DNA from: a virus
Virus record (IMG/VR): IMGVR_UViG_3300024265_002314
Location: 1 to 26,797 of that record
Reading direction: 5' to 3' (one strand)
Length of the DNA: 26,797 nt
This document shows, piece after piece, positions 916 through 25,490 of this stretch (position 1 is the stretch's first letter; each line of letters starts with the position of its first letter). The position numbers and the translations under genes were made by a program. The notes beneath the pieces are model-generated. The model searched no databases and was not told where the DNA came from. It worked only from the letters and a program-made list of their open reading frames with translations.

Positions 916-944
916 TCTGGATTTTGTACTGGGATTAAGCTATA

Positions 945-1427: not shown

Positions 1428-1429
1428 TT

Positions 1430-2101: not shown

Positions 2102-2102
2102 T

Positions 2103-2657: not shown

Positions 2658-2665
2658 AGTAAATT

Positions 2666-3025
2666 ATGAATACTAGTACGCCCATAGCAAAAAAACGGTT
2701 TGCCATTTATCATCTTGGAATGAAAAAATTTCTGTTCATGTTGAGGGAAACACCGCATGGTAGCCCATTTACATGGATGCCAAGCAATGGGATATTCTTC
2801 ACGTTAAATCAAGAGAACATTAGTTCATTTATCGGCTACTTACATAACGATAAGTATAGTAAGATAGGAACTGTGTGTATTTGGGTGATAAATTTTCTAC
2901 GAAGGGAAAATAGTTGGAAAGATATTATGGTAGTTCCCTTGGATTTGTTGGAAGTTGGGAGTGATGAAGTAAACCTGTATGCACCGGATTATGACCGCAG
3001 CTATCAGCTATGGCTGGGAAAATGA
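2666..3025 (+). CDS. Type A paralogous small phage protein
   Basis: 119 residues, function not recognised. RFAIYHLGMKKFLFM near residues 11-25 is the opening motif, PFTWMPS near 34-40 gives the conserved Trp, DIMVVPLDLLEV near 89-100 the V-P strand, and APDYDRSYQLW the ending. It most closely resembles the next gene in layout (insert before the V-P strand), suggesting a recent tandem duplication. Its TGA stop overlaps the next start as ATGA. Confidence 0.8.
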   Translation: MNTSTPIAKKRFAIYHLGMKKFLFMLRETPHGSPFTWMPSNGIFFTLNQENISSFIGYLHNDKYSKIGTVCIWVINFLRRENSWKDIMVVPLDLLEVGSDEVNLYAPDYDRSYQLWLGK

Positions 3026-3318
3026 CTAAACAGTTCTTTGTGATCTATAATCCAGAGAAGGATAAGTTTCTCTTGGATGAAACTGACCCGGAACTTCACC
3101 GCCCGTATCGGTGGGTGGTTGGCACATCTGGATGTTCCATACTGGCCATAACAGGGGACATGCTTGATGGGTTTATTGCAAGAGAATTTGAAACGGCTAA
3201 TCATATACTTGAGTTTTTGAAAAACCACTGTCCAGATGATGGTATAATGTTGATCCCGATGAATATGATAAATGAAGACCGGGCCACGTTTGATTTCAAG
3301 CATGGGTTTAAGTTATGA
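3022..3318 (+). CDS. Type A paralogous small phage protein
   Basis: 98 residues from the ATG at 3022, chosen because it overlaps the preceding stop as ATGA; a slightly longer start at 3010 exists. It is one of the cleanest type A members: FFVIYNPEKDKFLLDE at residues 5-20, YRWVVG near 29-34, GIMLIPMNMINE near 75-86 and TFDFKHGFKL at the end. No extra domain is present, so it defines the minimal family unit of roughly 95-100 residues. Function unknown. Confidence 0.82.
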   Translation: MTKQFFVIYNPEKDKFLLDETDPELHRPYRWVVGTSGCSILAITGDMLDGFIAREFETANHILEFLKNHCPDDGIMLIPMNMINEDRATFDFKHGFKL

Positions 3319-3331
3319 TAGGGAGAACATA

Positions 3332-3898
3332 ATGACAAGAACACGCATAGCAAGAGTAATGCCTAAAGTGGTTACCGAAATCAGGCGTGGCTATGTTCTT
3401 TTTTGCACAGATACGGACAAATTTATGACATATACACCATATACTCACCCGTCATTTTTCTGGGTAGATGAAACTAGGTATCTGATTAACGAAAATATTA
3501 TTGACACCGCAAGATGCGTGCTTAGAACATCATCGTTTCAAGCATTTTTGGGTGAGGATAACGTCGTGTTGGTACCAACTGTGGGGTACTATGGGCCAGA
3601 TTTACGTAATAAAGCCGGGGATGGGACGCAACGGGATGTGTTTTTTGAGATAGATTTCAGACATTCGTTTGATATGTGGAAGGAAATACCAAAGATAAAA
3701 ATGGCACCGGTTCTTAGTAAAAAGTTGAAACACAGTTCGAAGATGTTTTCTGGGCTCAAATTGGACGGTATTGAATGGGATTTCACTAAGGGAGTTTCCC
3801 CGCATAATAGGCTTGACTCTATTAATATTCTTGACAAGTGGGCACATGACTCTCCACACTTCGATTTAAACGAGTCAAATGTCCCCGACAACGATTGA
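3332..3898 (+). CDS. Type A paralogous protein with C-terminal extension
   Basis: 188 residues from the ATG at 3332, which is preceded by an AGGGAG ribosome-binding site at 3319-3324; the frame is open further upstream but without such a site. Family core: GYVLFCTDTDKFM at 20-32, FFWVDE at 42-47, NVVLVPTVGYY at 77-87, and FEIDFRHSFDMW at 105-116. Residues 117-188 are a Lys- and Asp-rich extension without recognisable features. Function unknown. Confidence 0.82.
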   Translation: MTRTRIARVMPKVVTEIRRGYVLFCTDTDKFMTYTPYTHPSFFWVDETRYLINENIIDTARCVLRTSSFQAFLGEDNVVLVPTVGYYGPDLRNKAGDGTQRDVFFEIDFRHSFDMWKEIPKIKMAPVLSKKLKHSSKMFSGLKLDGIEWDFTKGVSPHNRLDSINILDKWAHDSPHFDLNESNVPDND

Positions 3899-3947
3899 GC
3901 ATTGTGGATTTTACATCCCATTAGTTTGACAAAATTAGGTGAGAATA

Positions 3948-4322
3948 ATGGAACATCAAAAAGGGTTTATTTTATACAATTTAAGCAATGAGATGTATCT
4001 TGGAAGGTCACTAGCGGCAACCAGTGGGGATACCCACAGATGGGTAAGTGACACGCCCCTGTTACTATGTGAGAACGCCTTGGACATGTTATTTAACATC
4101 AATTCGTTTATTCCACGGTCACGGTTTCCTAATATGAAAAATACTGAATTTAATGATCATGTCAAGGAGATTAGGCGGGAAACAAAGTTTGTACTATCTT
4201 TTTTAAAGGAACATTCCGATATGGTCGAAATTATGGTGGTTCCAATAGATGTGGAAGGAGATGGAACAAGCTATGATATTGATTTTGTTAAAGCTTTTAA
4301 ATTTGATGTAAATATGGTATAA
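3948..4322 (+). CDS. Type A paralogous small phage protein
   Basis: 124 residues from the ATG at 3948, preceded by an AGGTGAG site; an upstream GTG at 3939 overlaps that site and is less likely. The core motifs are GFILYNLSNEMYL at residues 6-18, HRWVSD near 29-34, EIMVVPIDVEGD near 98-109 and YDIDFVKAFKFD near the end. An insert of about 30 residues lies before the V-P strand. This appears to be the last type A gene before an internal promoter and a change of family. Function unknown. Confidence 0.8.
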   Translation: MEHQKGFILYNLSNEMYLGRSLAATSGDTHRWVSDTPLLLCENALDMLFNINSFIPRSRFPNMKNTEFNDHVKEIRRETKFVLSFLKEHSDMVEIMVVPIDVEGDGTSYDIDFVKAFKFDVNMV

Positions 4323-4323
4323 T
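4315..4323 (+). promoter_or_regulatory. Extended -10 promoter (TGGTATAAT)
   Basis: The sequence TGGTATAAT is a perfect TGn-TATAAT extended -10 element. No convincing -35 hexamer is seen at the right distance, which extended -10 promoters tolerate. Transcription would start near 4330, just after the type A array and upstream of the GTG at 4356, so it could drive the second half of the gene array. Confidence 0.45.
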
Positions 4324-4355
4324 AAAAGATGAAGAAAAGTAATCAGGAGAGTAAC

Positions 4356-4646
4356 GTGGATAAAAGATATGGTGTTTGGTGCTTTTCAGAACGCGATTTT
4401 GAGAATGGTGCCGATATAAGCTACAGTAATGCCATGGGTTTGGCCTTGTTTTGTGTCGAGGAAGATGAATTTGGCGTGAAAAATTTTGCTGTTATAGCGA
4501 TGGACGATAACAAAAACCCCATTTGGCATGAAATGATATGGTGTGGTCAGTTCCATGGATATGATTTCTTGTACAGAGAATGTATTCGTCTGGGTGAGAT
4601 TTCAGAACGCGAAGGTTTTGATCCCGAGGATATAGTGTTTATCTAA
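4356..4646 (+). CDS. Hypothetical small phage protein
   Basis: 96 residues from a GTG at 4356, preceded by AGGAG at the usual distance. An ATG at 4329 has no ribosome-binding site and lies at or before the predicted transcription start. The protein opens MDKRYGVWCFSERDF, has a central strand-rich part (LALFCVEEDEFG, NFAVIAMDD) and ends acidic. It does not clearly fit either paralogous family. Function unknown. Confidence 0.65.
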   Translation: MDKRYGVWCFSERDFENGADISYSNAMGLALFCVEEDEFGVKNFAVIAMDDNKNPIWHEMIWCGQFHGYDFLYRECIRLGEISEREGFDPEDIVFI

Positions 4647-4985
4647 ATGAGTTCCCCACCCACATCTTTAAAAAATATCCACGAATTAAGTCAATTTTTG
4701 GATCTAATACACAAAACCCTCGAAAAGGTGGAAGGTGAGGGTTTTGTGGTATATGACGTTTTTGATGATTCTTATATGGAAGACGGTGGTGAGATTTACT
4801 TCAATAAGGACCAATTGGCCAAGTTCTTGTGTGATCTTGGTGATCATTTATCTAATGTGGTAGTGTATGGTTTGAGTGAAACTGGTATTGATTGCACCAA
4901 GCCACTTTTGTATGGAAAGAACATAATTGAAGCTCTTGACATAGTATTTAATAACTTGGTAGATATGATAAACAAAAGGAACTAA
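4647..4985 (+). CDS. Type B paralogous small phage protein
   Basis: 112 residues, function not recognised. It is the first of five type B proteins, defined by a strand and turn F-V-V-Y-D-x-x-x-D-x-[FY], then a Phe/Lys-acidic-[QE]-hydrophobic helix, a VVVY strand, and a P-x-x-x-G-x-K ending. Here these are GFVVYDVFDDSYMEDG near 32-47, YFNKDQLAKFL near 51-61, NVVVYGL near 70-76 and KPLLYGKNIIEAL near 85-97. The opening resembles the type A opening motif, so both families may share an ancestor. It begins immediately after the previous stop, with no strong ribosome-binding site. Confidence 0.78.
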   Translation: MSSPPTSLKNIHELSQFLDLIHKTLEKVEGEGFVVYDVFDDSYMEDGGEIYFNKDQLAKFLCDLGDHLSNVVVYGLSETGIDCTKPLLYGKNIIEALDIVFNNLVDMINKRN

Positions 4986-4998
4986 TTGGACTACCCTA

Positions 4999-5352
4999 AT
5001 GATTAGCTTAAAAAGAGATTATTTACAAAGCTTTTTCGCTGATGATAAGGGGAAAACCATCTTTGTTGTTTACGATATAAATCGAGATGATTTTCTGGCC
5101 AATGGTGCCCTTGGTAAATATTTTACTAAAAGGGAACTGGTAAGTTTCTTATCAAATATTGAGTTAGAAACTGTGGTTGTGTATCCAAATAATGAGTATG
5201 AGGAACGCCCAGATTTTAGATTTCCAATAATGGGTACTAAATTATTCAAGGGTATACAAGAACTTGAAAATGAGTTGATGAGACATTCTCCGCACGAATC
5301 AAGTTTAATGGGGATTCCACGTATTCCGCCGGGAGTAAACCGGAGTGAGTAA
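4999..5352 (+). CDS. Type B paralogous small phage protein
   Basis: 117 residues, function not recognised. The type B motifs are complete: TIFVVYDINRDDFLANG near 20-36, YFTKRELVSFL near 41-51, TVVVYPN near 57-63 and FPIMGTKLFKGI near 74-85. A short tail rich in His, Ser and Pro follows. Its stop overlaps the next gene's GTG start by 8 bases. Confidence 0.78.
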   Translation: MISLKRDYLQSFFADDKGKTIFVVYDINRDDFLANGALGKYFTKRELVSFLSNIELETVVVYPNNEYEERPDFRFPIMGTKLFKGIQELENELMRHSPHESSLMGIPRIPPGVNRSE

Positions 5353-5713
5353 ACAGGCCATATTGGATCATCTTGATATTCAAAGCAATTCCGAACTGTT
5401 TGTCATATATCGACTAAGTGGTGATATTTTTGAATCGGATGACAAAGAAAATTTAACCCTTTTTTCAAAGGAGCAAGTATGTGCTAGGATGTTGTCTGGC
5501 CCATTCCCTGACATGGTAGTTTTTGAAATAAACAATGATCGTGTTATTAACTATCTTTCCCCAGCGATTATTGGCTCCAAGTTTGTTGAAGACATCGATT
5601 CCACCCAAGACATTGGTTCGTGGGATGTTTCGTTTGTTACCACTATAGATGCTATATTTAAAAATTGCTCTGTTTTCAGCCAAGATATTAACAGTTGGAA
5701 AACGGGGGCGTAG
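5345..5713 (+). CDS. Type B paralogous protein with a DUF285-like repeat fragment
   Basis: 122 residues from a GTG at 5345 overlapping the upstream gene, with GGGAG upstream. The type B motifs are LFVIYRLSGDIF, LFSKEQVCARML, MVVFEINND and PAIIGSKFVEDI. The C-terminal 38 residues read like one degenerate unit of the DUF285/BspA-type surface repeat, with QDIGSWDVSFVTTID and then VFSQDINSW, matching the typical Q-D-I-x-x-W-D-x-S-x-V-T-x-M pattern. That repeat usually occurs in many copies on surface proteins; a single copy fused to a small phage protein is odd and may be a captured fragment. Confidence 0.75.
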   Translation: MSKQAILDHLDIQSNSELFVIYRLSGDIFESDDKENLTLFSKEQVCARMLSGPFPDMVVFEINNDRVINYLSPAIIGSKFVEDIDSTQDIGSWDVSFVTTIDAIFKNCSVFSQDINSWKTGA

Positions 5714-5717
5714 GTAA

Positions 5718-6071
5718 ATGAGCGACATCGAGAAGATACATGAAGGGTTCAGGCTTGTTGAATTTAAACATGATAGACCACACACCCTTTTTCATGGCAT
5801 AAATAGATCTAGAGTGTTGAACGTTGGTGAATGGATTGAGGCTGATGTGAAACGTGTAAATGATAATGGTGGACAGAGCTACATGGGTGGGTTTCACTTT
5901 CTTTATAATCTGGATGAAATTCGGGAGTATATGGAACGGTTTACTGCTCCACGAGATTTGCGTGTGGTACGAATGTTGGCAAAGGATGTTTGGCCGAAAC
6001 CAACAAACCCCGTAGTATTCTTAAGCCGGTGGATGTTTTTGGAAAACGACTTCCAGAGGTTGTCTACATGA
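5718..6071 (+). CDS. Hypothetical conserved-looking phage protein
   Basis: 117 residues from an ATG at 5718. It contains an HTLFHGINRSRVL segment, GEWIEADVKRV, GGFHFLYNLDEI and a C-terminal WPKPTNPVVFLSRWMF. The aromatic pattern F-H-x-L...G-E-W...G-F-H-F-L looks conserved, as in a compact beta-rich fold. It fits neither paralogous family. No catalytic motif can be defended. Its stop overlaps the next start (ATGATG). Confidence 0.7.
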   Translation: MSDIEKIHEGFRLVEFKHDRPHTLFHGINRSRVLNVGEWIEADVKRVNDNGGQSYMGGFHFLYNLDEIREYMERFTAPRDLRVVRMLAKDVWPKPTNPVVFLSRWMFLENDFQRLST

Positions 6072-6598
6072 TGATAGTTTTGCCAACAAGTGATGACATG
6101 ATCGCGTTGGCCAAGATAAGAGCAAAGAAGATGCCCCGGTTAAGGAACTCAATCAGGAACGGCGGGGGGAACGTTGTAGGCTGTTTAGGGGAGATAGCAC
6201 TCAATGATTTATTAATAGGGGACTTAGTTAGTCACGAGTGCATAGATTATGACATTATGTACCGTGGCGGTACGAAGATTGAAGTTAAGACAAAAGACAC
6301 CACAGTTGAACCACAAGCAGATTTTGAAGCAAGTCTCAATAATCACAACACCAAACAGCGTTGTGATGTCTATGCATTCTGTAGAGTGAAGAAAGATCTT
6401 AGTATAGCATGGTTATGTGGTATGATTAGGAAACAAAACTTTTTAAAACAGTCTAGGTTCCTTAAAAAGGGACAAAGGGACGGTAGTAACGGTTATATCG
6501 TCAAAGCTAATTGCTGGAACATGTATCACTATGACTTAGAGATACCTCAAAAGTTAGTTGAGTATGCAATGGAGCGTGGATTTAGGGTGATAGAATGA
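6068..6598 (+). CDS. PD-(D/E)XK-like nuclease family protein
   Basis: 176 residues from the ATG at 6068, which overlaps the upstream TGA; the frame extends to 5990 but would overlap the previous gene by 82 bases. It shows the layout of the PD-(D/E)XK restriction-endonuclease fold: an N-terminal helix with GCLGEIALNDLL (Glu near 41), then DYDIMYRGGTKIEVKTKDT, where the Asp and the E-V-K of IEVKTK would be the metal-binding D...ExK residues. The RCDVYAFCRV strand after it fits the core sheet. Such proteins are Holliday-junction resolvases, restriction-like enzymes or repair nucleases; which one cannot be said. The assignment rests on motif pattern only. Confidence 0.65.
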   Translation: MMIVLPTSDDMIALAKIRAKKMPRLRNSIRNGGGNVVGCLGEIALNDLLIGDLVSHECIDYDIMYRGGTKIEVKTKDTTVEPQADFEASLNNHNTKQRCDVYAFCRVKKDLSIAWLCGMIRKQNFLKQSRFLKKGQRDGSNGYIVKANCWNMYHYDLEIPQKLVEYAMERGFRVIE

Positions 6599-6918
6599 TA
6601 CCACCAGCTCCTTGGTCAAGTGATGTGTTGTCGTCTCGACATACGATAATGGAATATTACACGAAATTTTTCGCTCCTTTCGGAAATAATGTACTTTTTG
6701 AGGTTTATGATGTATCTACAGAATCCTTTGTGATATTTCACGGTAACGAACGTTCCAAATTAATGAACAAAGGAACAATAATAGAAAATTTAACTGATTT
6801 ATCTTTAATAAAGTCACCCCTCTTTTTAGATATAATCATTTTAATATACAACACTACCAACATTGATTTCGACAATCCGGTTTTTATCGGAAGTAAGGAC
6901 GCGTATAAAGATGGATAA
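6595..6918 (+). CDS. Type B paralogous small phage protein
   Basis: 107 residues starting at an ATG that overlaps the nuclease stop (ATGA). The type B pattern is present: VLFEVYDVSTESFVIFHG near 33-50, LMNKGTIIENL near 55-65, LDIIILIYNT near 78-87 and NPVFIGSKDAYKDG at the end. The Lys-Gly replaces the usual Lys-acidic pair in the second motif, so it is a diverged member. Function unknown. Confidence 0.73.
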   Translation: MIPPAPWSSDVLSSRHTIMEYYTKFFAPFGNNVLFEVYDVSTESFVIFHGNERSKLMNKGTIIENLTDLSLIKSPLFLDIIILIYNTTNIDFDNPVFIGSKDAYKDG

Positions 6919-7402
6919 CTACATTCGTGGGTCAGATATAGAACAAAAGTATGTAATCTATGATACAGCACGGGACAAGTATATTAAGACAAAACTAATT
7001 GGCGATGGGGACATGCTAGAAATACATTACGTAGAAAATGTGCAGGATGCCACCTTCTGTAACAGTATGGCGGAAGTGGCTAAAGATTTAGAGCAAGCTG
7101 GTATTGCGATAACCAGTAAAATTAAGATCATAGGGATTAGTATATCATTAATCATCACCCCGGATTTCATTATAGACTATTCCCATAAAGTTAAGAAATC
7201 AGCAGAGGCAGATTTTAAACCTGTTCCCCGAGATCCTGCTTTGGAAAAACTAGAGAAGGAGATTAAGGAGGCACAGGGGGAAATGATAGATAAATATCAG
7301 GAGCAATTGCGGGAGGAAATAAAAAAACGTCATGAAGAAAACATGGCTGGAGGGGCTGGAGCGTATAATCCCTCCGATATTTCTACAAACAAATTCCTGT
7401 GA
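6911..7402 (+). CDS. Type B-like protein with C-terminal coiled coil
   Basis: 163 residues from the ATG at 6911, which overlaps the previous stop; an upstream in-frame start would overlap the earlier gene more deeply. KYVIYDTARDKYIKTK near 13-28 matches the family opening, and IKIIGISISLII near 72-83 the core strand. After residue 100 there is a Lys/Glu-rich helix (about 110-148, with LEKLEKEIKEAQGE and LREEIKKRHEE) predicted to form a coiled coil, then a Gly/Ala-rich end. It closes the paralogue array. Function unknown. Confidence 0.73.
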   Translation: MDNYIRGSDIEQKYVIYDTARDKYIKTKLIGDGDMLEIHYVENVQDATFCNSMAEVAKDLEQAGIAITSKIKIIGISISLIITPDFIIDYSHKVKKSAEADFKPVPRDPALEKLEKEIKEAQGEMIDKYQEQLREEIKKRHEENMAGGAGAYNPSDISTNKFL

Positions 7403-14706: not shown

Positions 14707-16230
14707 TTAAGCTGCTTCCACTGCTTCGTAGGCAGCCAAATCATAGAAGCTACACGCATCTGGGATGCAGTCACGGGAACCATTAGGTGTCAATATCCAG
14801 TGCCAATTTTTTGGCTTATCAGGTACAATCTCGTTACCGAACCCATCAGTTACCACGAAAACAGCTTCTGGATATATGAATTTAGGATCATTGGTAAGTT
14901 CTTCCTGAATACGTTCTTCCAAAATGCTAAAGTATGTGCCACCAAACCCATATAATTTTCTGTCAATTAGGTTTGTTTCATAAACCTTAGTGTCAAAACA
15001 GAACATCCGCATGTTGAACCGATCAAGGGGCATCCCCTCGGCAATCCCAAAGAACCTATCGGTATAACCAGTACATGAACCGGAAGTATCTTGAAAAAAC
15101 CATACCTCTATCTTATCTATTTCTGGTTTTCTGGTGAGAGTTTCATACTCAGTAGGTAACATCAACCCAGTATCTACCATGGTAAAGCGTCTATTTCGGT
15201 GTACCCACTGATCTTCCTCAAGATACTCAGGATTCATTTTCTTTCGTGCCCAAGAAGTGACAATATGTTCAAATTTGTGTTTCTTTGGTTCTTTCACTTC
15301 TTTAGCAAATGTCCAACCTGTACCGGCAGTCGTACCTGCTTGGGTGCCGCCATCTTTACCCGGCTTACCCGGCTTACTTTTTCCAGTGGGTTTCACTTCT
15401 GGATTCTCTTTCGGGTCACCGTTGCTATTTTCGTTCTCGTTTATGAAGTTTTCAAGAGTCTCTTTTTCATCACTTGTCAAGTCTTCATCTAACTTACCAA
15501 TGGCGTCACTGAAATCATCAGAGTACTCATTTGGGTCAAAGTAATCGAATTCATCAGGATCTAGATCACCCGGATCACCCTCATCACTCTTATCACCCTT
15601 GCCATCATCCTTGCTATCATCACTTTCTCCTTCTCCCTCTTCACCTTCTCCTTCTCCCTCTTCACCTATTTGATCACCTAAGTCATGATCATCAACAGTC
15701 TCAGACTTTCCAGCCATTTCTTGAAATTTCTCTGGTTGTTCTTCGGCCATACGAACTAGAATATTGAAGTAATATTCATAGTTTTCATCATCCGCGAACG
15801 TTTCTGGCAATAATGATTCGAAAACTCTATCTACCCAACAATATTTGTTTTCTGGGTCTACTTCTTCGCGCTTATAACCATAACGATTAACAAGAGCATG
15901 GTTAATAACCAAATCTTGTGCAATGTTGGATATTTTTCGTAACCTTCTTGTTTTTAACTCTCTTGTTCGTGCACCGTGGTTCAGTGCAATATGAAAACAT
16001 TCATGTGATATAACAAAACACTTGATAATGAAAGAAAGTCCTTCCCAAAACTCTTTATTTACGATAAAATCAATACAATCGCCCTTTTTATTGAACAGGA
16101 CACCGGCAGTGGGAACCCTTTTACTAAAGCGTATACGGCTCATAGTCCACACACGCTCAAACAAAGCATGATGGACTTCAAGTGCCCTAGCAATTTTAAA
16201 GTGTTCTTGATGTGAAAGGCGTTCGCTCAT
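14707..16230 (-). CDS. Metallopeptidase-like/VWA domain fusion (DUF2201-type)
   Basis: 507 residues with GGAGAA before the ATG. The N-terminal domain (about 1-150) carries ISHECFHIALNHG, an HExxHxxxxH zinc-peptidase-type motif (His76, Glu77, His80, His85). An acidic, probably disordered linker (about 165-300) follows, including VDDHDLG and GEGEGEE runs. The C-terminal domain (about 370-507) is a VWA fold with an intact metal site: DTSGS at 381-385, the GGT near 430-432 and the Asp of VVTDGFG near 462. Peptidase-like/VWA proteins pair with MoxR ATPases, and one is encoded divergently at 16356, so they probably form an ATPase-driven remodelling complex. Its target is unknown. Part of the linker is shared with the protein at 9468. 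Confidence 0.88.
   Translation of the reverse strand: MSERLSHQEHFKIARALEVHHALFERVWTMSRIRFSKRVPTAGVLFNKKGDCIDFIVNKEFWEGLSFIIKCFVISHECFHIALNHGARTRELKTRRLRKISNIAQDLVINHALVNRYGYKREEVDPENKYCWVDRVFESLLPETFADDENYEYYFNILVRMAEEQPEKFQEMAGKSETVDDHDLGDQIGEEGEGEGEEGEGESDDSKDDGKGDKSDEGDPGDLDPDEFDYFDPNEYSDDFSDAIGKLDEDLTSDEKETLENFINENENSNGDPKENPEVKPTGKSKPGKPGKDGGTQAGTTAGTGWTFAKEVKEPKKHKFEHIVTSWARKKMNPEYLEEDQWVHRNRRFTMVDTGLMLPTEYETLTRKPEIDKIEVWFFQDTSGSCTGYTDRFFGIAEGMPLDRFNMRMFCFDTKVYETNLIDRKLYGFGGTYFSILEERIQEELTNDPKFIYPEAVFVVTDGFGNEIVPDKPKNWHWILTPNGSRDCIPDACSFYDLAAYEAVEAA
15674..15741 (-). repeat. 68-bp dispersed repeat, copy 2
   Basis: The minus-strand reading matches 9666-9733 at about 90% identity, including 25 exact bases. 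It lies in the acidic linker of the VWA/metallopeptidase gene. Confidence 0.9.
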
Positions 16231-16256
16231 ATTTGTTCTCCGCTCAAGTAGTACTT

Positions 16257-16285
16257 ATTATAGGCGGTTATAAATAAAAAAGCAA
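16257..16285 (-). promoter_or_regulatory. Sigma70 promoter of the VWA gene
   Basis: On the minus strand: TTGCTT (16280-16285), a 17-base spacer and a perfect TATAAT (16257-16262), about 27 bases before the ATG at 16230. It is back to back with the plus-strand promoter at 16292-16320. Confidence 0.75.
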
Positions 16286-16291
16286 TAGAGG

Positions 16292-16320
16292 TTGACATCT
16301 TTTTTAAAAAAGTCTATTAT
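16292..16320 (+). promoter_or_regulatory. Sigma70 promoter of the MoxR gene
   Basis: A perfect TTGACA (16292-16297), 17-base spacer and TATTAT (16315-16320). The start codon is at 16356. The two -35 boxes of the divergent promoters are only six bases apart, so one regulator could control both. A TATAAATA at 16269-16276 on the plus strand could add late transcription. Confidence 0.8.
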
Positions 16321-16355
16321 ATAGACAAATGGAGAAACGAAAGGAAATATGAACT

Positions 16356-17756
16356 ATGATTAGTGATAAAAAATTAGACTTCTATATCGAAAATGGAATG
16401 AACGTTCTGTTTATTGGTAGACATGGGGTTGGTAAAACTGCCATGGGTAAGGCAGCATTTGAAAGGCATAACCTTAAGTGGAAATATTTTTCTGCTGCTA
16501 CTATGGACCCTTGGGTTGATTTCGTAGGTGTTCCAAAAGAAACCATAGACAAAGAAACCGGGGAGAATTATATCGAACTGGTTCGTCCCAAAGGTTTCCA
16601 CAACGATGAAGTAGAAGCAATCTTCATGGATGAACTTAATCGCGCAAAGGATAAAGTTCGTAATGCGGTGATGGAATTGATCCAGTTTCGGTCTATCAAC
16701 GGCGTGAAATTCACCAAATTGAAAATGATTTGGGCTGCTATTAATCCTGAAGATGAAGAAGACGAAGATCTGAAATATGATGTTGAGCGGTTGGACCCGG
16801 CACAGAAAGATAGGTTCCACGTTCATATACATGTTCCATACGAACCATCCAAGAAGTATTTCAAGAGAACCTTTGGAACTTCCGGTATTGGTGCCGTTGA
16901 ATGGTGGGATGGGCTGAGTAATGAACAAAATAAATTAGTGTCCCCTCGTCGTTTGGAATATGCCATTAACTTCCACCAAAGGGGTGGTGATCTTCGAGAC
17001 ATCATGCCGAATGATGAATTGAACTTAGACCAACTGCGTCAACGTTTGGTTGGTGGTTCCATTAAACTGAAACTGAAAGAACTGTTTGATGATAACGACG
17101 ACGTAAAAGCCAGCGAAACTTTCAGCAACATCAACTTTACAACAGACGCCATCCAATTAATTTTGGAAGACACGGAGTACATCGAAAGGTTCATGAAATA
17201 TGTGCCCAAAGATATGATTAGTAAATTGATTACTGATAACGACGGTGAACACATTGAGAAAGTAGTTGGGCACACTGAGGCAGAGGTAATTGTACCGATT
17301 TTGAGTTCCCTCATTGCGTCAAACAGTTTGAGACGAACGGTTCTGCAAAAGGTTACGGTGTGTGCTGATAACCGTGGGCTGGACCTGACTTCTGAAAATG
17401 CCTTTGACACGGCAATTAAAGAAGGTCTGGAGAACATCACCAAGACCCGTCCTGACCGATACAATGCTTTACATGGTGTCAGCCAAAACTTTAATAAGAG
17501 TGCTACGTTAGAAGTGTACACGCAAGCACTGTATTTTGTGACGCAAATGATCTATCATACACAGGATGGGTCATTGAATGACGAGAATAAGCCATTTAAC
17601 CAAATTGGTCGGCATATTCTGGCAGAACTTGAGGACTCCTTGAAGTCTAATCACAATACTTCTGTTATGGCTACTTGGAAGACACTGAAGGATAAATATA
17701 CTGACAAAACACGTAGTGATAGGATAGAGTCTTTCTTGAAGAAATTTCTCAAGTAA
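16356..17756 (+). CDS. MoxR-type AAA+ ATPase
   Basis: 466 residues. Walker A is FIGRHGVGKTAM (GRHGVGKT at 21-28), Walker B is AIFMDELNRA near 87-96, sensor 1 is IWAAINPEDE near 128-137, and the LDPAQKDRFHVHI segment near 149-161 carries a putative arginine finger. This is the MoxR/RavA pattern: hydrolysing ATP to remodel a partner, normally a VWA protein. Residues 200-466 are a helical lid and C-terminal domain. The partner VWA/metallopeptidase is transcribed divergently from the same region. The ATG at 16356 has AAGGA about 11 bases upstream. A dual-hairpin terminator-like element follows the gene. Confidence 0.92.
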   Translation: MISDKKLDFYIENGMNVLFIGRHGVGKTAMGKAAFERHNLKWKYFSAATMDPWVDFVGVPKETIDKETGENYIELVRPKGFHNDEVEAIFMDELNRAKDKVRNAVMELIQFRSINGVKFTKLKMIWAAINPEDEEDEDLKYDVERLDPAQKDRFHVHIHVPYEPSKKYFKRTFGTSGIGAVEWWDGLSNEQNKLVSPRRLEYAINFHQRGGDLRDIMPNDELNLDQLRQRLVGGSIKLKLKELFDDNDDVKASETFSNINFTTDAIQLILEDTEYIERFMKYVPKDMISKLITDNDGEHIEKVVGHTEAEVIVPILSSLIASNSLRRTVLQKVTVCADNRGLDLTSENAFDTAIKEGLENITKTRPDRYNALHGVSQNFNKSATLEVYTQALYFVTQMIYHTQDGSLNDENKPFNQIGRHILAELEDSLKSNHNTSVMATWKTLKDKYTDKTRSDRIESFLKKFLK

Positions 17757-18960: not shown

Positions 18961-20829
18961 TCATATTGCATACTTAGCTTCTAATTCTTCTTGTACTGCT
19001 GTAATATTTGCTCCCGATAAATCAGAAGTAAATACTACCAATTCAAATAAAGCACCTTCAATAGATATAGAATTATCATAATTTGTAAGAATCGTACCAA
19101 GATCCCAATTGTTTGATCCAGCATCACCAGTCACGTTACCGAGATCAGATATTGTAAATTTACTTGTTGCATCCCCTCTAAATTCAGAAGTAAATAATCG
19201 AGCATTTATATCATATGTTTGAGCTGAACGTAAATATGTACCCGCCCACATATACCATTCATCATTATTACCATCTTCTGTAGCTATTGAAACAATATTT
19301 CCTGAATCAGAACGATTATGCCAGATAACTGTGATTGCTGATGGGCTTGAATTTGATGGTTTAAATACTGTAAATACAACAAATGGTTCACCAATATCAA
19401 TACCACTCGTTGTTTCTAATCCCGCAGATCCAGAAGAACTAACACCTGTATGACCATTTAATGTAGATGTAGTGAGATTTGCTCCTGTTCCAACTACAAC
19501 ATCAAAATCACCAGCAGAACCAGCAGAACCAGAATTAGTCCATTCTGTAACTGGTGCACTTCCTACAATTCCTTCTTCTTTATACCAATATGCAGGATCG
19601 AGATCTGCAATAGCTGAGGGGACTGTTGGTGTTGGCGTATTAGTTGGTGTAACAACCGGTGTATCAGTCGCTGAAACTGTTGGTGTAGCCGTAGTTGTTG
19701 GTGTAACAGCCGGAGTATCCGAAACAGTAGCTGTTACCGTTGGTGTAGCCGTAGTTGTTGGTGTAACAGCCGGAGTATCCGAAATAGTTGGTGTTACTGT
19801 TGGTGTCACTGTGGATGTGACCGTAACTGTTGGTGTAACAGCCGGAGTATCCGAAATAGTTGGTGTTACTGTTGGTGTCACTGTGGATGTGACCGTAACT
19901 GTTGGTGTTACTGTTGATGTCATTGTTGGTGTTACTGTTGATGTGACCGTAACTGTTGGTGTTACTGTTGATGTGACCGTAACTGTTGGTGTCACGGTGT
20001 TGGTTGGTGTTTCTGTAGTTGTTGGTGAAGGAGTGTTTGTGGGTTGTGGTGATGGCTCCTCAGTACTCGTTGGGGTAACTGTTGATGTAGGAGTAGGAGT
20101 ATTTGTAACTGTCACCGTTGGTGTCACCGTGATTGTTGGTGTCACGGTGTTGGTTGGTGTAACAACCGGTGTATCCGAAATTGTCGGAGTGACGGTTGGT
20201 GTAATAGTTACTGTGGCTGTAACAGTTGGTGTAATAGTTGGTGTTGCCGTAGTAGTTGGTGTTGCCGTAGTAGTTGGTGTCACCTCTGGTGTAACGGATG
20301 GTATAACAGATGTGGTTGGTGTAATTGTTGGCGATATCGGGGGTGCTGTCAAACTAGGAGTAACCGTGGGGGTTGCTGGCTGGTCAGTAAAGCATCCACC
20401 GCCACCCTGTACATTAGTATCCTCATCTTCTACGGATTGTGGTATAGCAACATTCTGTGTAATTTGCAGTGCAACCCAAGAAGTTTTAAAGAATTCCTTA
20501 AATTCTTTTTTATTCACAAATGCATCATTAAGAACTTGAAAGAAAATGTGGTTTACATCTTCAACTTGAAAACTATCATATATTGCTTGCATGGTAGCAA
20601 CGATATCTTCTGGGGTAGAGAAGTTGACATTGTTATTAACGAAGGAGTCAATATCAATCCCACTAAATTCCCTAGTAGAATCAGTTAAGATACCAATAAC
20701 AGTAGATTGTGCTAAATCAGGATCAACAAAAATCTGATCATTACCTAATCCAAAACGAGTGTCAGCATCAAACCCTGCATCATACAGGATTCGTTCTAAT
20801 GATGGTAATGTTTTGGATCTATCAGTCAT
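18961..20829 (-). CDS. Virion fibre-like protein with Thr/Pro stalk and lectin-like end
   Basis: 622 residues. An N-terminal domain (about 1-145) has no signal peptide and is probably the virion-attachment part. A stalk of about 250 residues (roughly 150-405) is almost entirely V-T-P-T, T-A-T-P and S-D-T-P-A units. The C-terminal 210 residues resemble a concanavalin A-like/LamG lectin domain: PAYWYKEEGIVG, VTEWTNSGSAG, FVVFTVFKPS and a final LEAKYAI. It probably forms part of a fibre or tail decoration that binds host-surface sugars. A CATAAATA late motif precedes it, and a second protein of the same style is encoded just upstream. Confidence 0.82.
   Translation of the reverse strand: MTDRSKTLPSLERILYDAGFDADTRFGLGNDQIFVDPDLAQSTVIGILTDSTREFSGIDIDSFVNNNVNFSTPEDIVATMQAIYDSFQVEDVNHIFFQVLNDAFVNKKEFKEFFKTSWVALQITQNVAIPQSVEDEDTNVQGGGGCFTDQPATPTVTPSLTAPPISPTITPTTSVIPSVTPEVTPTTTATPTTTATPTITPTVTATVTITPTVTPTISDTPVVTPTNTVTPTITVTPTVTVTNTPTPTSTVTPTSTEEPSPQPTNTPSPTTTETPTNTVTPTVTVTSTVTPTVTVTSTVTPTMTSTVTPTVTVTSTVTPTVTPTISDTPAVTPTVTVTSTVTPTVTPTISDTPAVTPTTTATPTVTATVSDTPAVTPTTTATPTVSATDTPVVTPTNTPTPTVPSAIADLDPAYWYKEEGIVGSAPVTEWTNSGSAGSAGDFDVVVGTGANLTTSTLNGHTGVSSSGSAGLETTSGIDIGEPFVVFTVFKPSNSSPSAITVIWHNRSDSGNIVSIATEDGNNDEWYMWAGTYLRSAQTYDINARLFTSEFRGDATSKFTISDLGNVTGDAGSNNWDLGTILTNYDNSISIEGALFELVVFTSDLSGANITAVQEELEAKYAI
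19625..20370 (-). repeat. Low-complexity repeat coding the Thr/Pro stalk
   Basis: A dense run of short related units (GTTGGTGT-type on the plus strand) encodes the TPTVTPT-type stalk. Within it 19766-19837 and 19838-19909 are a perfect tandem 72-base duplication (24 codons), and shorter exact units recur around it. Such DNA can change length by recombination. Confidence 0.9.
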
Positions 20830-20853
20830 AATTTAAATTCAATATAATTATAT

Positions 20854-20861
20854 TATTTATG
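20854..20861 (-). promoter_or_regulatory. T4-like late promoter motif (CATAAATA)
   Basis: On the minus strand CATAAATA lies 24 bases before the ATG of the fibre-like gene at 20829, one base different from the T4 late consensus. Confidence 0.5.
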
Positions 20862-20862
20862 G

Positions 20863-21987
20863 CTATGCACCACCAAATGTAATACCACTTATCCACCCAG
20901 TGCAATTATCAACTGGTGTTCCGCCAGCACCAATTGCTATTTCAAGAGTCCATTGTGTATCTGCTTCCCCTGCACCACTAATCGGATCGTAAACGCAACG
21001 ATTTCCCCACTCTATGGAACCACTAGCTGGCATTTGTATCCAAGCACTATATATTCCTGTTTTAGAACCAGTTACATACCATTCAGCCGTAACTATTACT
21101 CTAAACCAATAAATTGTTGGATCTGCTGGCGGTGTTGTATTCAACCAAGTAGATGGAAAATTATCAGAATAAGAAACATGTGGTGGATTGTCAATTGGTG
21201 TAATTATTGTACCGTTTGAATTAAATCTAACCCACGTAAGCATGGTACCAGCATCTGAACGATTACCGGTTACGTAATAACTACCACCATTTAATGGCAA
21301 TGGTTCTGTTGGGGTTGGTGTAACTGCTGGTGTTCCCGGTGGTGTTGCTGTTGGTGTTGGTGTAGAAGTTACTGCCGGTGTAGAAGTTACTGCCGGTGTT
21401 GGCGAACTTGTGACTGTCACTGTTGGGGTTGGTGTTAGTGATGATGCCGGTGCCGGTGTTGCTGTTGCTGTCACTTGGGCCGTCGGTGTCACCGTCTCCG
21501 TTGGTGTCACTGTTGGCGTGACTGCTGGCGAACCACCCGGTGTTCCCGGTGGAGTACTTGCTGGTGTATTTGGTGGTGTATTTGGTGGTGTTCCCGGTGG
21601 TGTTCCCGGTGGTGTATCAGTTGGTGTCACAGTGGACGTGGCTGAAAATGTTGGTGTCACAGTGGACGTGGGAGTTACCGTGGGTGTTACAGTAGAAGTT
21701 TGTGTATTTGTTGGGGTAAGAGTAGGGGTTGGCGTAACTGTACTCGTTTCTGTTACTGTATTTGTTGGTGTCACCCAGTCTGTTATTACTGATTCTGAAA
21801 AATCAACCAATAGCTGGGTACCAACATCAAATGGATTATTAGATGCTGCATCAGGATCTACAAAGTTGTATTGCTCAAGTATCTCCAAAATTTTGGTATG
21901 ATACGGCTTAACTTCATTGAAATATGTTATAAATGATTGTATGGGTGTAGAAATCCCAGAATCTTCTGCACCGGTATTATCAGTCAT
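20863..21987 (-). CDS. Structural protein with Thr/Pro-rich stalk
   Basis: 374 residues. The N-terminal segment contains FITYFNEVKPYHTKILEILE (residues 19-38), a pattern I associate with phage tail or neck structural proteins. Residues about 75-225 are a stalk of T-V-T-P-T and P-P-G-T-P-P units. The C-terminal 145 residues are strand-rich (WVRFNSNGTIITPI, YWFRVIVTAEWYVTG, WTLEIAIG), likely a small beta-sandwich. It follows an exact late promoter and is arranged like the gene downstream, suggesting that the two make parts of the same structure. A host-binding role for the end is inferred. Confidence 0.75.
   Translation of the reverse strand: MTDNTGAEDSGISTPIQSFITYFNEVKPYHTKILEILEQYNFVDPDAASNNPFDVGTQLLVDFSESVITDWVTPTNTVTETSTVTPTPTLTPTNTQTSTVTPTVTPTSTVTPTFSATSTVTPTDTPPGTPPGTPPNTPPNTPASTPPGTPGGSPAVTPTVTPTETVTPTAQVTATATPAPASSLTPTPTVTVTSSPTPAVTSTPAVTSTPTPTATPPGTPAVTPTPTEPLPLNGGSYYVTGNRSDAGTMLTWVRFNSNGTIITPIDNPPHVSYSDNFPSTWLNTTPPADPTIYWFRVIVTAEWYVTGSKTGIYSAWIQMPASGSIEWGNRCVYDPISGAGEADTQWTLEIAIGAGGTPVDNCTGWISGITFGGA
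21305..21775 (-). repeat. Low-complexity repeat coding a second Thr/Pro stalk
   Basis: Short GTTGGTGT- and GGTGTTCCCGGTG-type units recur throughout and encode the T-P-T and P-P-G-T stalk. Composition is close to the stalk of the downstream gene, so recombination between the two is possible. Confidence 0.85.
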
Positions 21988-22528: not shown

Positions 22529-23575
22529 TCACTGCAAAAAATTATAATTTTTCAACATGAACTCTCTAAGGCGAAGCTTGGCTTCAAAATCATAATAGGT
22601 CTTATCTACTATTGTCTTGAGTACGTACAGTTTGCCAAATTTATTTATAGATTTACATATATCAGTACAGGGCAGTGTATCTGGGAGAGAGATACCCCAC
22701 CCAAGGTCAATGGCTTGTTGAGCTAGGTTCATTCCATCTTTATTATAGTCAGGGATAACTACTTTGTTCCTTCTAGATCTATCCAGAAGCAATACCTTAC
22801 CCTTTTTCATAGCGTTTGCAAGTACGGCCACACCATTGACATGCCATGAATCAAAAAACCCTTCTGTTATATACAATGGGATTTCTGGGTCACTCACATA
22901 CAAATTATCCATCCCAAACATGACAGACTGGCTATCCTCTATGGTTACAGTGATGTATTTTTTGACACTCTCACCAACGAATATCCTCGCTTGCCAGTAA
23001 ATCATGCGGTCATTGTAATATGATGGTATAATAATTCTTGGCCGGAGAGACCTAGATAAATGTATATCCCCATCTAAGGTAGAGTTGGTCTTCCCCGTGG
23101 ATAAGAAAAACGGATAATCGTCTTGGGTCATCTTGTATTTTTCCCACAAGAAATCCCTAGCCTCCTCTGCCAATATGTCATCGTCATCGAATTTGTTCAT
23201 TAGTTTGAAGAAGTCTGGTATGGGTAAGTTGGGCAAATGAACTTTTGTTGGACGCTTTAGAACTTTGCCTTTCTCTGTCTTGATTTTTGAGGTAATAAGG
23301 GCATTTATATCCTTGGGTGGTATACCAAAAGAACGGAAGATGTCGTACATATTCTTAGAATGTGGAGAATCACGGGTTGGATCAAAATTACCATCTATGC
23401 CACAATTAAAGCAGTTGTAGAAGCATATGTCCTCTTCAAACAACCATCCTCCACGAGGTCCCTTGGTATGCGTACCATCACCACAAACCTCACAAAATAT
23501 CTTGTTCCAGCCCTTAGCTGATGGAGAATGTACGAGAGGCACATGAGTTCGTACTATGTCTTCGATAGTATCCAT
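22529..23575 (-). CDS. Stand-alone DNA primase (zinc ribbon and TOPRIM)
   Basis: 348 residues. The N-terminal zinc ribbon has C28-x-x-C31 and C55-x-x-C58 (FCEVCGDG, NCFNCGIDG). The TOPRIM core follows: LYITEGFFDSWHV with Glu238, and VVIPDYNKDG with Asp276 as the metal-binding acids. RIIIPSYYNDRMIYWQARIF near 180-199 matches the conserved strand before TOPRIM in bacterial and phage primases. There is no helicase domain, so it would work with a separate helicase, like T4 gp61 with gp41. It makes RNA primers for the lagging strand. No clear ribosome-binding site precedes the ATG; a TATACT stretch lies immediately upstream. Confidence 0.88.
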   Translation of the reverse strand: MDTIEDIVRTHVPLVHSPSAKGWNKIFCEVCGDGTHTKGPRGGWLFEEDICFYNCFNCGIDGNFDPTRDSPHSKNMYDIFRSFGIPPKDINALITSKIKTEKGKVLKRPTKVHLPNLPIPDFFKLMNKFDDDDILAEEARDFLWEKYKMTQDDYPFFLSTGKTNSTLDGDIHLSRSLRPRIIIPSYYNDRMIYWQARIFVGESVKKYITVTIEDSQSVMFGMDNLYVSDPEIPLYITEGFFDSWHVNGVAVLANAMKKGKVLLLDRSRRNKVVIPDYNKDGMNLAQQAIDLGWGISLPDTLPCTDICKSINKFGKLYVLKTIVDKTYYDFEAKLRLREFMLKNYNFLQ

Positions 23576-23635: not shown

Positions 23636-24301
23636 TTAGGTTTTGGGTTTGGGTTTTGAGTTTTTCTCAATCACTTCTTCTTCATCTATATCATAGTTAA
23701 ATTCGACAATTTTATCATCACCGCGTTGCTTAAGGCGCTCTATAAGTTCTACTGAACCAAACCAAAAATCTTTATCCTCACAGACGGCCTGTATTTCCTC
23801 CTCTGTAAGGAAATCCTTATAAAAGGAATGAGCAAGGTCCTTAAAATATTTCTCTGAGAATTTAACTCTCTTAGCTACTTCACCACCCTTACCAATCGCG
23901 CCGTGGCTATAGTTATGAATCATAAAGGAACAATTGTCATTGACAATATAATAGTCCCCGGAGAGAAATATGAATGTCCCGGCTGAACATACCTCACCTT
24001 CTATGACGGTAGTAATTTCCGCCGGGGACTTGGAAATAGCTGATATTATCTGAATAGTGGTATTTAAATCACCGCCCGGTGTGTTAAGATAAATGAATAT
24101 TTTATCATGTGGTTCAGATGTTTTGATGATGTTGAGCATGTCAACATATCTGTCAACTTCATCACTTATTTCCCCTGTGAGGTAGAAATGGTGTATGGTT
24201 ACTGGGATTACTTGAGTATAATGCTTTATGGACTTTTCTTCCAAAAGACCACTTAATAACGGTAATGCACTTAAAATCTCGTCTTCCTCAGAATTTGTCA
24301 T
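23636..24301 (-). CDS. clpP: ClpP-like serine protease (S14 family)
   Basis: 221 residues from the ATG at 24301, with AGGAG at good distance; an adjacent upstream TTG is unlikely. ClpP features are present in order: IFIYLNTPGGDL near 68-79 (oxyanion-hole glycines), EGEVCSAGTFIFLSG with nucleophile Ser106, SFMIHNYSHG with His129, and a final Asp near 178 in EDKDFWFGS. The C-terminus has an acidic and Lys/Pro tail. It could associate with a host Clp ATPase or act in capsid maturation, as S14 enzymes do in some phages. It lies immediately downstream of a tmRNA whose tag ends LAA, the ClpX signal, so tag-dependent proteolysis is an attractive role. Confidence 0.92.
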   Translation of the reverse strand: MTNSEEDEILSALPLLSGLLEEKSIKHYTQVIPVTIHHFYLTGEISDEVDRYVDMLNIIKTSEPHDKIFIYLNTPGGDLNTTIQIISAISKSPAEITTVIEGEVCSAGTFIFLSGDYYIVNDNCSFMIHNYSHGAIGKGGEVAKRVKFSEKYFKDLAHSFYKDFLTEEEIQAVCEDKDFWFGSVELIERLKQRGDDKIVEFNYDIDEEEVIEKNSKPKPKT

Positions 24302-24338
24302 CAAATGGATCTCCTAGATATCTTTGGCTGATAAAAAT

Positions 24339-24346
24339 ATTTATCA
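24339..24346 (-). promoter_or_regulatory. T4-like late promoter motif (GATAAATA) within a palindrome
   Basis: On the minus strand GATAAATA lies 37 bases before the clpP start. It is part of a perfect 8-bp hairpin, CTGATAAA/TTTATCAG with a 4-base loop, at 24328-24347, which could instead be an operator or the end of the tmRNA transcript. Confidence 0.4.
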
Positions 24347-24392: not shown

Positions 24393-24417
24393 CAAACGGC
24401 CCCAAAGGAGCCGTTTG
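24393..24417 (-). terminator. Strong hairpin at the end of the tmRNA
   Basis: CAAACGGCTCC and GGGGCCGTTTG form an 11-bp stem (one G-U) with a TTT loop, followed by ATTTTAGG. The position after the tag frame and the short T-run allow either a terminator or a structural helix of the tmRNA coding piece. Confidence 0.55.
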
Positions 24418-24457
24418 GCAGAAACTTGGGTAATAAGGCTTTCCAAACCCCAGAAAA

Positions 24458-24514
24458 TTATGCAGCAAGAGCGAACTCTTCTTCAAAATCTTCGGTATAG
24501 CTTTCATCATTTGC
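24458..24514 (-). other. tmRNA tag reading frame (ANDESYTEDFEEEFALAA)
   Basis: Reading from GCA at 24514, the frame gives ANDESYTEDFEEEFALAA followed by TAA at 24460-24458. With the alanine from the charged tRNA-like end the tag would be 19 residues. It begins A-N-D like most bacterial tags and ends A-L-A-A, the ClpX-type degron. The acidic middle is longer than the E. coli tag and recalls alphaproteobacterial tags ending EEFAxAA. Confidence 0.9.
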
Positions 24515-24685
24515 AGATGTTTTATTTCTCGATATACGGCTCTTGAAACCGGATAGCCCAATAACCTATTCATCCCCTGTCGAAACCAAGGTCACCCCCA
24601 TAAAAATATGCTTGGTGGAGGTGGAGGAAATCGAATCCTCGTCCAGAGCAACTTTCAATTAGAAAGTTTACTATCATTAAGTTAT

Positions 24686-24714
24686 ATATTACACCATGCA
24701 AAAAGGTTTGTCAA
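24686..24714 (-). promoter_or_regulatory. Sigma70 promoter of the tmRNA
   Basis: On the minus strand a perfect TTGACA (24709-24714), 17-base spacer and TAATAT (24686-24691). Transcription would start near 24678, giving an acceptor piece of about 66 bases. This is among the best sigma70 matches of the window and is not of the late type, so the tmRNA is probably made by the unmodified host polymerase. Confidence 0.75.
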
Positions 24715-24726
24715 ATGGTTTTTGAA

Positions 24727-24990
24727 CTAACTCACATGAAGTAAACTGTCAATAGATATCTCCTCAAATGAATCCCATTTACCTATATCAGTGATTTTGC
24801 GTTGCTCGGTATCTACCATTTCACCAGTCCCATGCCCAAAATCGTAATGGGCAATCTCATTTTCCTCATAAAAAACATGTACGGTGTCTGTTTCCTTCTC
24901 CAATTTGTATGTTAACTCATATGGATAGTGCGTAATAACAGCTCTGGCCCAATCTGCGAATGTTGTTTGGTGGTTACCGCTCATTCTCAT
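24727..24990 (-). CDS. Hypothetical small protein
   Basis: 87 residues. The ATG overlaps the preceding stop as ATGA, so it is probably translationally coupled to the 2H phosphoesterase gene. Features: a Trp-containing helix (FADWARAVITHY), strands (ELTYKLEKETDTVHVFYEEN) and an acidic end. No family recognised. Its association with the Acb1-like gene may be meaningful. Confidence 0.65.
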   Translation of the reverse strand: MRMSGNHQTTFADWARAVITHYPYELTYKLEKETDTVHVFYEENEIAHYDFGHGTGEMVDTEQRKITDIGKWDSFEEISIDSLLHVS

Positions 24991-25490
24991 TTGTACTTAC
25001 CATCTAATGCTAATTCTTCTTCGTATTCCCTGTCTATCTCCAGAGAGCCAAGAAGCTCCCCCATGTTGTGGCCCTTATAGTCAAAATCCCCACAATCATA
25101 AGATAATGTCATATGTGGGATAAACTCAGGGAAATCATAGGTAGCCTTGTGTTCATCCATGATTTCTTCGTGTCTATTAACGAGATCTGGGGCATCCATT
25201 ATCACCACCAGAACGTTATTTTCCTCATCACCACTAGAAAAAATGTCCAGCTTTTTAGCCTTGATCTCAATTGGATCATCCAACTTTCCGCGTGGTTTGA
25301 AATCAGGAAGATGCTTACTAGAATGAATGACAGTCAGATGTATCTCTGATTCTTCAACTGGTTCAGGCACATTCAATTTTTCAATTACATCCAAAACCTT
25401 TTCTATTGACTCTTTAGAAAGTCTAACCCCGACGTATGTTCCCTTCTTTGGGGATTGCTTTTTTTCAGTTACGATTTGGGATAATTTCAT
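24987..25490 (-). CDS. acb1: 2H phosphoesterase, Acb1-like anti-CBASS candidate
   Basis: 167 residues. Two H-x-T motifs mark the 2H phosphoesterase fold: HLTVIHSSKH with His51 and Thr53, and FIPHMTLSYDCGD with His126 and Thr128. The surrounding NRHEEIMDEHKATYDFPEFIPHMTLSYD region agrees with what I recall of T4 57B (Acb1), which cleaves the cyclic oligonucleotides of CBASS defence, and the motif spacing (75 residues against 69 in T4) is close. The likely role is therefore hydrolysis of defence signal molecules in the cytoplasm. Oddly, the protein begins MKLSQIVTEKK, like the capsid-targeting-like leaders of other proteins here. The Acb1 match is from memory of the family, not a search. Confidence 0.78.
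   Translation of the reverse strand: MKLSQIVTEKKQSPKKGTYVGVRLSKESIEKVLDVIEKLNVPEPVEESEIHLTVIHSSKHLPDFKPRGKLDDPIEIKAKKLDIFSSGDEENNVLVVIMDAPDLVNRHEEIMDEHKATYDFPEFIPHMTLSYDCGDFDYKGHNMGELLGSLEIDREYEEELALDGKYK

Follow-up and report, generated by a model that had tools for sequence, protein, structure and literature searches.

The window analysed here is an entire IMG/VR virus record of 26,797 bases. On its minus strand it carries a permuted tmRNA gene, which lies between the gene of an Acb1-like protein and those of a ClpP-type protease and a DNA primase. The features of this locus are the following:

24987 to 25490, minus strand: Acb1-like (anti-CBASS) protein, upstream of the tmRNA (PF23474, 102.6 bits against a cut-off of 27)
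24686 to 24714, minus strand: candidate sigma-70-like promoter, TTGACA at 24714-24709, 17 nt, TAATAT at 24691-24686 (10 of 12 consensus positions)
24613 to 24675, minus strand: acceptor (3') piece of the permuted tmRNA (RF04321 alignment, stem table)
24675-24671, minus strand: GATAG, the P2 strand in the RF04321 alignment
24640-24624, minus strand: T-arm (RF04321 alignment, stem table)
24623-24613, minus strand: acceptor 3' strand CACCTCC (24623-24617), A (24616) and CCA (24615-24613) (sequence)
24600 to 24612, minus strand: intervening segment of 13 bases, expected to be excised (sequence, length table)
24458 to 24599, minus strand: coding (5') piece (ARAGORN, RF04321)
24599-24593, minus strand: GGGGGTG, the acceptor 5' strand (sequence)
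24514-24458, minus strand: tag frame of 18 codons plus TAA, resume codon GCA, tag ANDESYTEDFEEEFALAA (sequence, ARAGORN, RF04321)
24393 to 24417, minus strand: hairpin after the tmRNA, a possible terminator (folding, -16.7 kcal/mol, 4 T in the next 8 bases)
24338 to 24345, minus strand: GATAAATA, a motif resembling T4 late promoters, upstream of ClpP (motif count)
23636 to 24301, minus strand: ClpP-type serine protease, open reading frame from TTG at 24304 or ATG at 24301 (PF00574, phrog_1827, triad, fold)
22529 to 23575, minus strand: DNA primase, the conserved partner of ClpP in the clade described below (phrog_47, 4.4e-28; gene order)

ARAGORN called a permuted tmRNA with this tag at 24705-24367 on the minus strand. 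The original prediction of a phage-encoded, permuted tmRNA had named a covariance search with permuted-tmRNA models as its check, and two Rfam models indeed recovered the gene over their cut-offs: the merged permuted-tmRNA model RF04321 with a full-length match (117.7 bits against 47, E-value 1e-22) and the betaproteobacterial model RF01850 (beta_tmRNA; 110.2 bits against 84, E-value 5e-33), the top model of its clan. Read along the minus strand, both the sequence and ARAGORN give the acceptor half, the 13-base spacer and then the coding half. All seven pairs of the acceptor stem GGGGGTG/CACCTCC form, with G3-U70 at the third, which we take to be the alanine identity of tmRNA. The tag frame opens with an alanine resume codon and runs to a hydrophobic, alanine-rich end (ALAA) before the stop codon. 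Tags ending in LAA suit ClpX; the AANDExY-like start presumably resembles that of the E. coli tag, where SspB binds, and we take the stretch before ALAA to be longer than in that tag. A cofold of the two pieces yielded the seven acceptor pairs and 12 further pairs between them. The P2 helix appears in the RF04321 alignment, while the free-energy cofold pairs the strand near 24671 with the tag region instead. The same gene occurs in two longer, near-identical IMG/VR records, and the tag is intact in three records of the virus, one of which (G002) differs by a single base just past the tag stop (24455, A to T). A standard, unpermuted tmRNA is ruled out, as ARAGORN and RF04321 both give the permuted form, and a chance match is ruled out by the Rfam E-values and by acceptor-stem shuffles (see below). 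The source is a virus record with phage-type genes around the locus. The gene is thus a real, well-formed and complete phage permuted tmRNA, which is a known kind.

That phage tmRNAs are not permuted, as had been assumed when the locus was singled out, is out of date. According to the accessible text of PMC9004378, a scan of 18,146 phage genomes gave 133 unique tmRNA structures in 402 phages, of which 53 were two-piece; marine or aquatic samples had supplied 50 of the 53. Our own pattern scan of a viral collection returned at least 120 stretches, and ARAGORN found a permuted tmRNA in 96 of 120 among the matches listed; together with the window and three further stretches from this virus, these made up the 124 stretches examined (100 of them permuted by ARAGORN). 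The idea of a first permuted phage tmRNA is ruled out by both sources. Weak DNA matches to the tmRNA came from S-CAM cyanophages and Pelagibacter phage Mosig, and a DNA similarity search against phage isolates gave no match for the window region. Huge phages with tmRNA and SmpB have also been reported (PMC7162821, as far as its available text goes).

More interesting than the permutation is the adjacent ClpP gene, on which the original prediction was silent. The protease belongs to the Pfam family CLP_protease (PF00574, 60.8 bits against a cut-off of 20.2) and to phrog_1827, and its predicted fold is that of ClpP (AF2 pLDDT 73 from six sequences; best Foldseek match 1.4e-9, TM to query about 0.5-0.6). 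Its closest isolates, at 48-50% identity, are the ClpP proteins of Stenotrophomonas phages CM1 and RAS14 and Xanthomonas phage XacN1, all jumbo phages of 319-385 kb, and ClpP and primase adjoin in the annotated regions of XacN1 and RAS14. Further members were collected by searching IMG/VR with ClpP and primase profiles, the clade being defined as the members above a gap in E-values (ClpP, about 1e-52 to 7e-39 (L259); primase, 2e-52 to 5e-37). With near-identical records merged, 15 lineages share the ClpP-primase block, one of which (G032) is cut by a contig end and uninformative. These are XacN1-like phages, of 315-385 kb where the record is long. In all 14 informative lineages the order of ClpP and primase is kept, with or without a tmRNA, and 14 of 14 clade ClpPs keep the triad S107-H130-D179, whose positions we assigned on the presumed pattern of E. 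coli ClpP; other cargo between the ligase and ClpP turns over among lineages.

Several further genes in and near the window are worth recording. The Acb1-like protein carries IHLT and PHMT motifs, and its BLAST relatives lie near the ClpP-primase block in G003, G005, G006, G013, G014 and G015. To the right of the window, another record of the same virus (L128, 5068-7252) places a nicotinamide phosphoribosyltransferase (phrog_448) beside a cytidyltransferase/NUDIX-like protein, an NAD-rebuilding pair that may act in counter-defence. The window itself also contains an array of diverged paralogous small proteins at 113-7402 (a profile built from seven matched three more of 20 tested, E <0.001), a gene pair at 14707-17756 encoding a divergent MoxR-like ATPase and a DUF2201 metallopeptidase-like protein, and, at 18961-21987, two proteins with long Thr/Pro/Val repeats (VTPTVTVT), where long opposite-strand frames occur as well.

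Within the 14 informative lineages, a permuted tmRNA lies within 3 kb of ClpP in 10, in every case on the ClpP strand. It stands directly upstream of ClpP in six (the window, G003, G004, G005, G013 and G033), directly downstream, between ClpP and primase, in two (G006 and G015) and upstream with one or two genes in between in another two (G034 and G007). By "directly" we mean that no same-strand frame of at least 55 codons intervenes, frames overlapping the tmRNA aside; the gap of about 0.4 kb in G005 holds an 80-codon frame on the opposite strand. Two of the near cases are found on records of more than 300 kb (G005 and G013), where closeness by chance is unlikely. In XacN1, a permuted tmRNA (matched twice in record AP018399.1, 123.2 bits) lies 49 kb from ClpP, at 37231-37530, in a stretch without an annotated feature; about 1 kb upstream, two suppressor tRNA genes are annotated (anticodon cta by ARAGORN; L134, AP018399.1 35500-39500). 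The bacterium Xanthomonas presumably has a one-piece tmRNA. The text of the XacN1 paper (PMC5852040) contains neither "tmRNA" nor "Clp". No permuted tmRNA over the cut-off was found in the three remaining lineages, namely RAS14 with CM1, G012 (350 kb) and G014 (a 27-kb fragment). Uncultured phages hence often carry permuted tmRNAs, and annotation of isolates can overlook them, as that of XacN1 shows.

Beyond the clade, none of 26 more distant records carried a permuted tmRNA (G008-G011, G016-G031 and W03-W08, the last being six isolates with a more distantly related ClpP or primase), a set that includes fragments and near-copies, as G017-G019 appear to be. Among 80 primase loci, ARAGORN found a tmRNA in three: L343 (this virus), L344 and L363. 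Approached from the tmRNA side, ClpP appeared among the matches listed (124 stretches, only 49 of which extend 2 kb on both sides) only in the stretches of this virus and in L015, a viral contig whose permuted tmRNA lies about 2.1 kb from a quite different, distant ClpP on the same strand. We found no report of a phage tmRNA beside a phage ClpP in the literature within reach of our search, which largely excludes subscription papers, and the recurrent ClpP company of a tmRNA in a group of large phages appears to be unreported. A different Clp part has been recorded near a phage tmRNA in Chryseobacterium phage MA9V-3, in which the accessible text of PMC13120357 puts the tmRNA at 22766-23124 and clpX at 26938-27777, 4 kb apart; a Sinorhizobium jumbo phage has both tmRNA and clpX as well (PMC11242549, likewise from its accessible text).

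The 11 clade tmRNAs, that is, the 10 near ClpP and that of XacN1, allowed us to ask how the gene is constrained. Pairing of the acceptor stem is complete, at 77 of 77 cells, and every one of the 11 tmRNAs has G3-U70. Pairs 4, 5 and 6 occur in four, five and four pair types, respectively, and pairs 1, 2, 3 (the G-U pair) and 7 are invariant; none of 2000 whole-strand shuffles matched the 77 pairs (mean 59.9, maximum 73). The T-stem has 52 of its 55 cells paired; in the register used, G005 accounts for all three exceptions. The resume codon is alanine throughout (GCA in eight, GCT in two, GCC in one), a stop codon is present in every tmRNA, and the tag ends in LAA in 10 and in QAA in one, although tags vary in length and letters; that of G005, which ARAGORN missed, was read by script, and for G033 and G034, whose script tags were longer, those of ARAGORN were used. 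Three tmRNAs do not encode the full CCA (L338, CTA; L341, AAA; L363, CAA) and would therefore need CCA addition by the host. The sequences show a permuted anatomy, an intact tag and a conserved acceptor pairing with compensatory changes.

Signals flanking the gene are less uniform. The original prediction endowed the tmRNA with its own promoter: a sigma-70-like element does lie just upstream and, by its position, is a plausible promoter of the gene, but such matches are no more numerous in the region than expected by chance (4 against 2.5 in shuffles, sd 1.8). Downstream, the window hairpin lies near the predicted end of the gene and was matched in stability by 1 of 40 shuffles; our terminator scan, which requires 5 T in 8 bases, did not list it. 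A hairpin follows the tag stop by 32-51 bases in all 11 clade tmRNAs. In eight of them at most 1 of 40 shuffles was as stable, the others being XacN1 (9 of 40), G007 (3) and G013 (2), and at least 5 T occur in the 8 bases after the hairpin in five of 11; a shuffle control limited to even lengths did not separate the hairpins of the window, G004 and XacN1 from shuffles.

A second kind of signal, [TG]ATAAATA, which we take to resemble the T4 late promoter consensus, occurs 14-30 bases ahead of the first base of the tmRNA match in seven of the 11. A TATAAATA-like (T4-type late promoter) element of this sort is absent just upstream of the window's own tmRNA, but one lies ahead of its ClpP. KATAAATA is enriched over the window as a whole (13 against 4.63 expected; none of 100 shuffles had as many). 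The slot from -25 to -5 was picked after viewing the sequences, which makes its P value unreliable, and the tmRNA starts of G033 and G034 were set by hand for this count. If the elements are promoters, the RNA would start near the mature 5' end of the acceptor piece.

The intervening segment had been called unusually short. This holds within the phage's own group, in which the 10 other tmRNAs have spacers of 30-142 bases, but not in general: in a scan that admitted spacers of 5-35 bases only, 28 of 124 viral stretches among the matches listed had 13 bases or fewer (five of the 28 being this virus), and Pelagibacteraceae spacers are mostly 11-12. A short spacer as a general peculiarity is ruled out on these counts.

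Based on these findings, we propose that the gene encodes a functional two-piece tmRNA that works with SmpB, EF-Tu and processing enzymes of the host, a reading to which we assign a probability of roughly 85%. In this model, transcription would begin shortly before 24675 and stop near the hairpin at 24417-24393, giving one short RNA; the 13-base spacer would be removed, presumably by host RNase P and a 3' tRNA-processing enzyme, leaving a 5' end at 24599 and a CCA end at 24613. The two pieces would be held together by the acceptor stem and the further pairing, and G3-U70 would direct their charging with alanine. Aided by SmpB and EF-Tu of the host, the RNA would then enter stalled ribosomes, free them and add the tag A-ANDESYTEDFEEEFALAA, whose LAA end suits ClpX; tagged products would be degraded, possibly through the phage ClpP encoded alongside. 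A search of 10 group records (eight distinct viruses, several of them fragments; G012-G015 and G032-G034 lay outside it) found no SmpB, so that the tmRNA must rely on host SmpB, and it is very likely a working tmRNA that borrows it. Whether tagging matters to a phage is a point of caution. In its accessible text, PMC2862035 reports work in which growth of lambda-immP22 needed ribosome recycling and not tagging; the paper's own data were used to argue for a secondary role of tagging.

What keeps the tmRNA in the company of ClpP may have a plain answer. Shared descent of gene order is the simplest rival to a functional link: the tmRNA would have entered a variable ligase-ClpP-primase region once and its order would have been inherited, with no connection to ClpP in function. 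We give this even odds. The constancy of the ClpP-primase order, whether or not a tmRNA is present, speaks for it, and a single origin of the 11 clade tmRNAs is not rejected (AU p 0.087). The tmRNA is found on either side of ClpP depending on the lineage, however, while the ligase-ClpP cargo turns over. This change of side in G006-G015, together with the varied cargo, argues that a frozen order alone does not account for the closeness, although the change itself may be one event. The ClpP-primase tree (570 columns) has deep splits and is partly unresolved. Lineages with a near tmRNA group in it as G004-G005, G006-G015 and G033-G034 (each starred) and as window-G003-G013 (88/92); G007 has a near tmRNA and its sister G012 has none. 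The tmRNA tree, with 145 columns and mostly unresolved, was rejected as a means of naming a donor and does not separate one acquisition from several. It places nine of the 11 clade tmRNAs, all except those of G006 and G015, in one starred group of 23 rows, which also holds 13 other phages and one Rhodocyclaceae contig (L200). Distances between tmRNAs and between proteins are uncorrelated (Spearman 0.10, Mantel p 0.30), which counts against joint inheritance but, with sequences this short, carries little weight.

A functional link would instead mean that truncated proteins marked by the phage tmRNA are degraded by the phage ClpP, either seated on ClpX of the host or mixed with the host's own ClpP. 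The genes would stay close because they work together. We consider this possible but unlikely. It is favoured by the near, same-strand tmRNA in 10 of 14 lineages across deep splits, by the eight cases in which the tmRNA directly adjoins ClpP on one side or the other, by the triad kept in every clade ClpP and by the lack of a permuted tmRNA in all 26 more distant records, a set weakened by its fragments and near-copies; the two phages with tmRNA and clpX mentioned above point the same way. Against it, a hairpin separates tmRNA and ClpP in most lineages, so that the two genes are not obviously one operon, clade ClpPs occur without any tmRNA in RAS14, CM1 and G012, and the tmRNA of XacN1 is far from its ClpP. 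Among the matches listed, moreover, the 119 other tmRNA stretches have a ClpP in reach only in L015, and that ClpP is of another kind. A Clp unfoldase (AAA_2) was found over the cut-off in none of 14 records; of four weaker matches, that of the window is its MoxR-like ATPase. If it acts on tagged proteins, the phage ClpP must therefore use a host unfoldase. Should the link be real, SmpB and a Clp unfoldase are all that the pair would have to borrow from the host. Proteins from stalled translation, such as that following mRNA cleavage in a defence response, would be redirected to proteolysis under phage control. That a lineage of large phages keeps a two-piece tmRNA and ClpP together as a pair, though their relative places change, is in our judgement rather doubtful. 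The recurrent closeness suggests that the tagging and proteolysis branch, and not only ribosome release, may matter to these phages.

Two further explanations fare worse. The tmRNA might be a captured host gene carried as a passenger, or a decoy titrating host SmpB, for which there is a precedent in mycobacteriophage DS6A, whose tRNA-like-only RNA is thought to act in this way (PMC11915505 and PMC4131195, in their available text); the full tag frame, the resume and stop codons and the compensatory pairing kept in 11 clade tmRNAs make this very improbable. An integration scar can practically be dismissed: bacterial ssrA is reported as a common phage attachment site (PMC9004378, accessible text), but here the gene is complete and stands at a recurrent place in large phages, and the 20 window proteins, compared with PHROGs, include no integrase and one excisionase-like HTH protein.

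The working two-piece tmRNA that we propose can be set beside several known systems. Like the permuted tmRNAs described by RF01850 and RF04321, it has its halves in the same order, and it scores over both cut-offs; it differs in its 13-base spacer, its 18-residue acidic tag and its viral source. The two-piece tmRNAs of Methylophilales phage Melnitz and other marine or aquatic phages (PMC9004378) are likewise phage-encoded, permuted and tagged. The accessible text of that paper mentions no ClpP neighbour for them, whereas the window tmRNA has one, gets its best score from the betaproteobacterial model and belongs to an XacN1-like phage. The window ClpP falls in the same family as other phage ClpP proteins (phrog_1827) and keeps their triad, but the 26 more distant records searched are without a permuted tmRNA. 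A further comparison is with XacN1, which shares the ClpP-primase block and a permuted tmRNA with the window virus, and in which the tmRNA stands apart from ClpP, has a 114-base spacer and encodes the tag ANANTFDYALAA.
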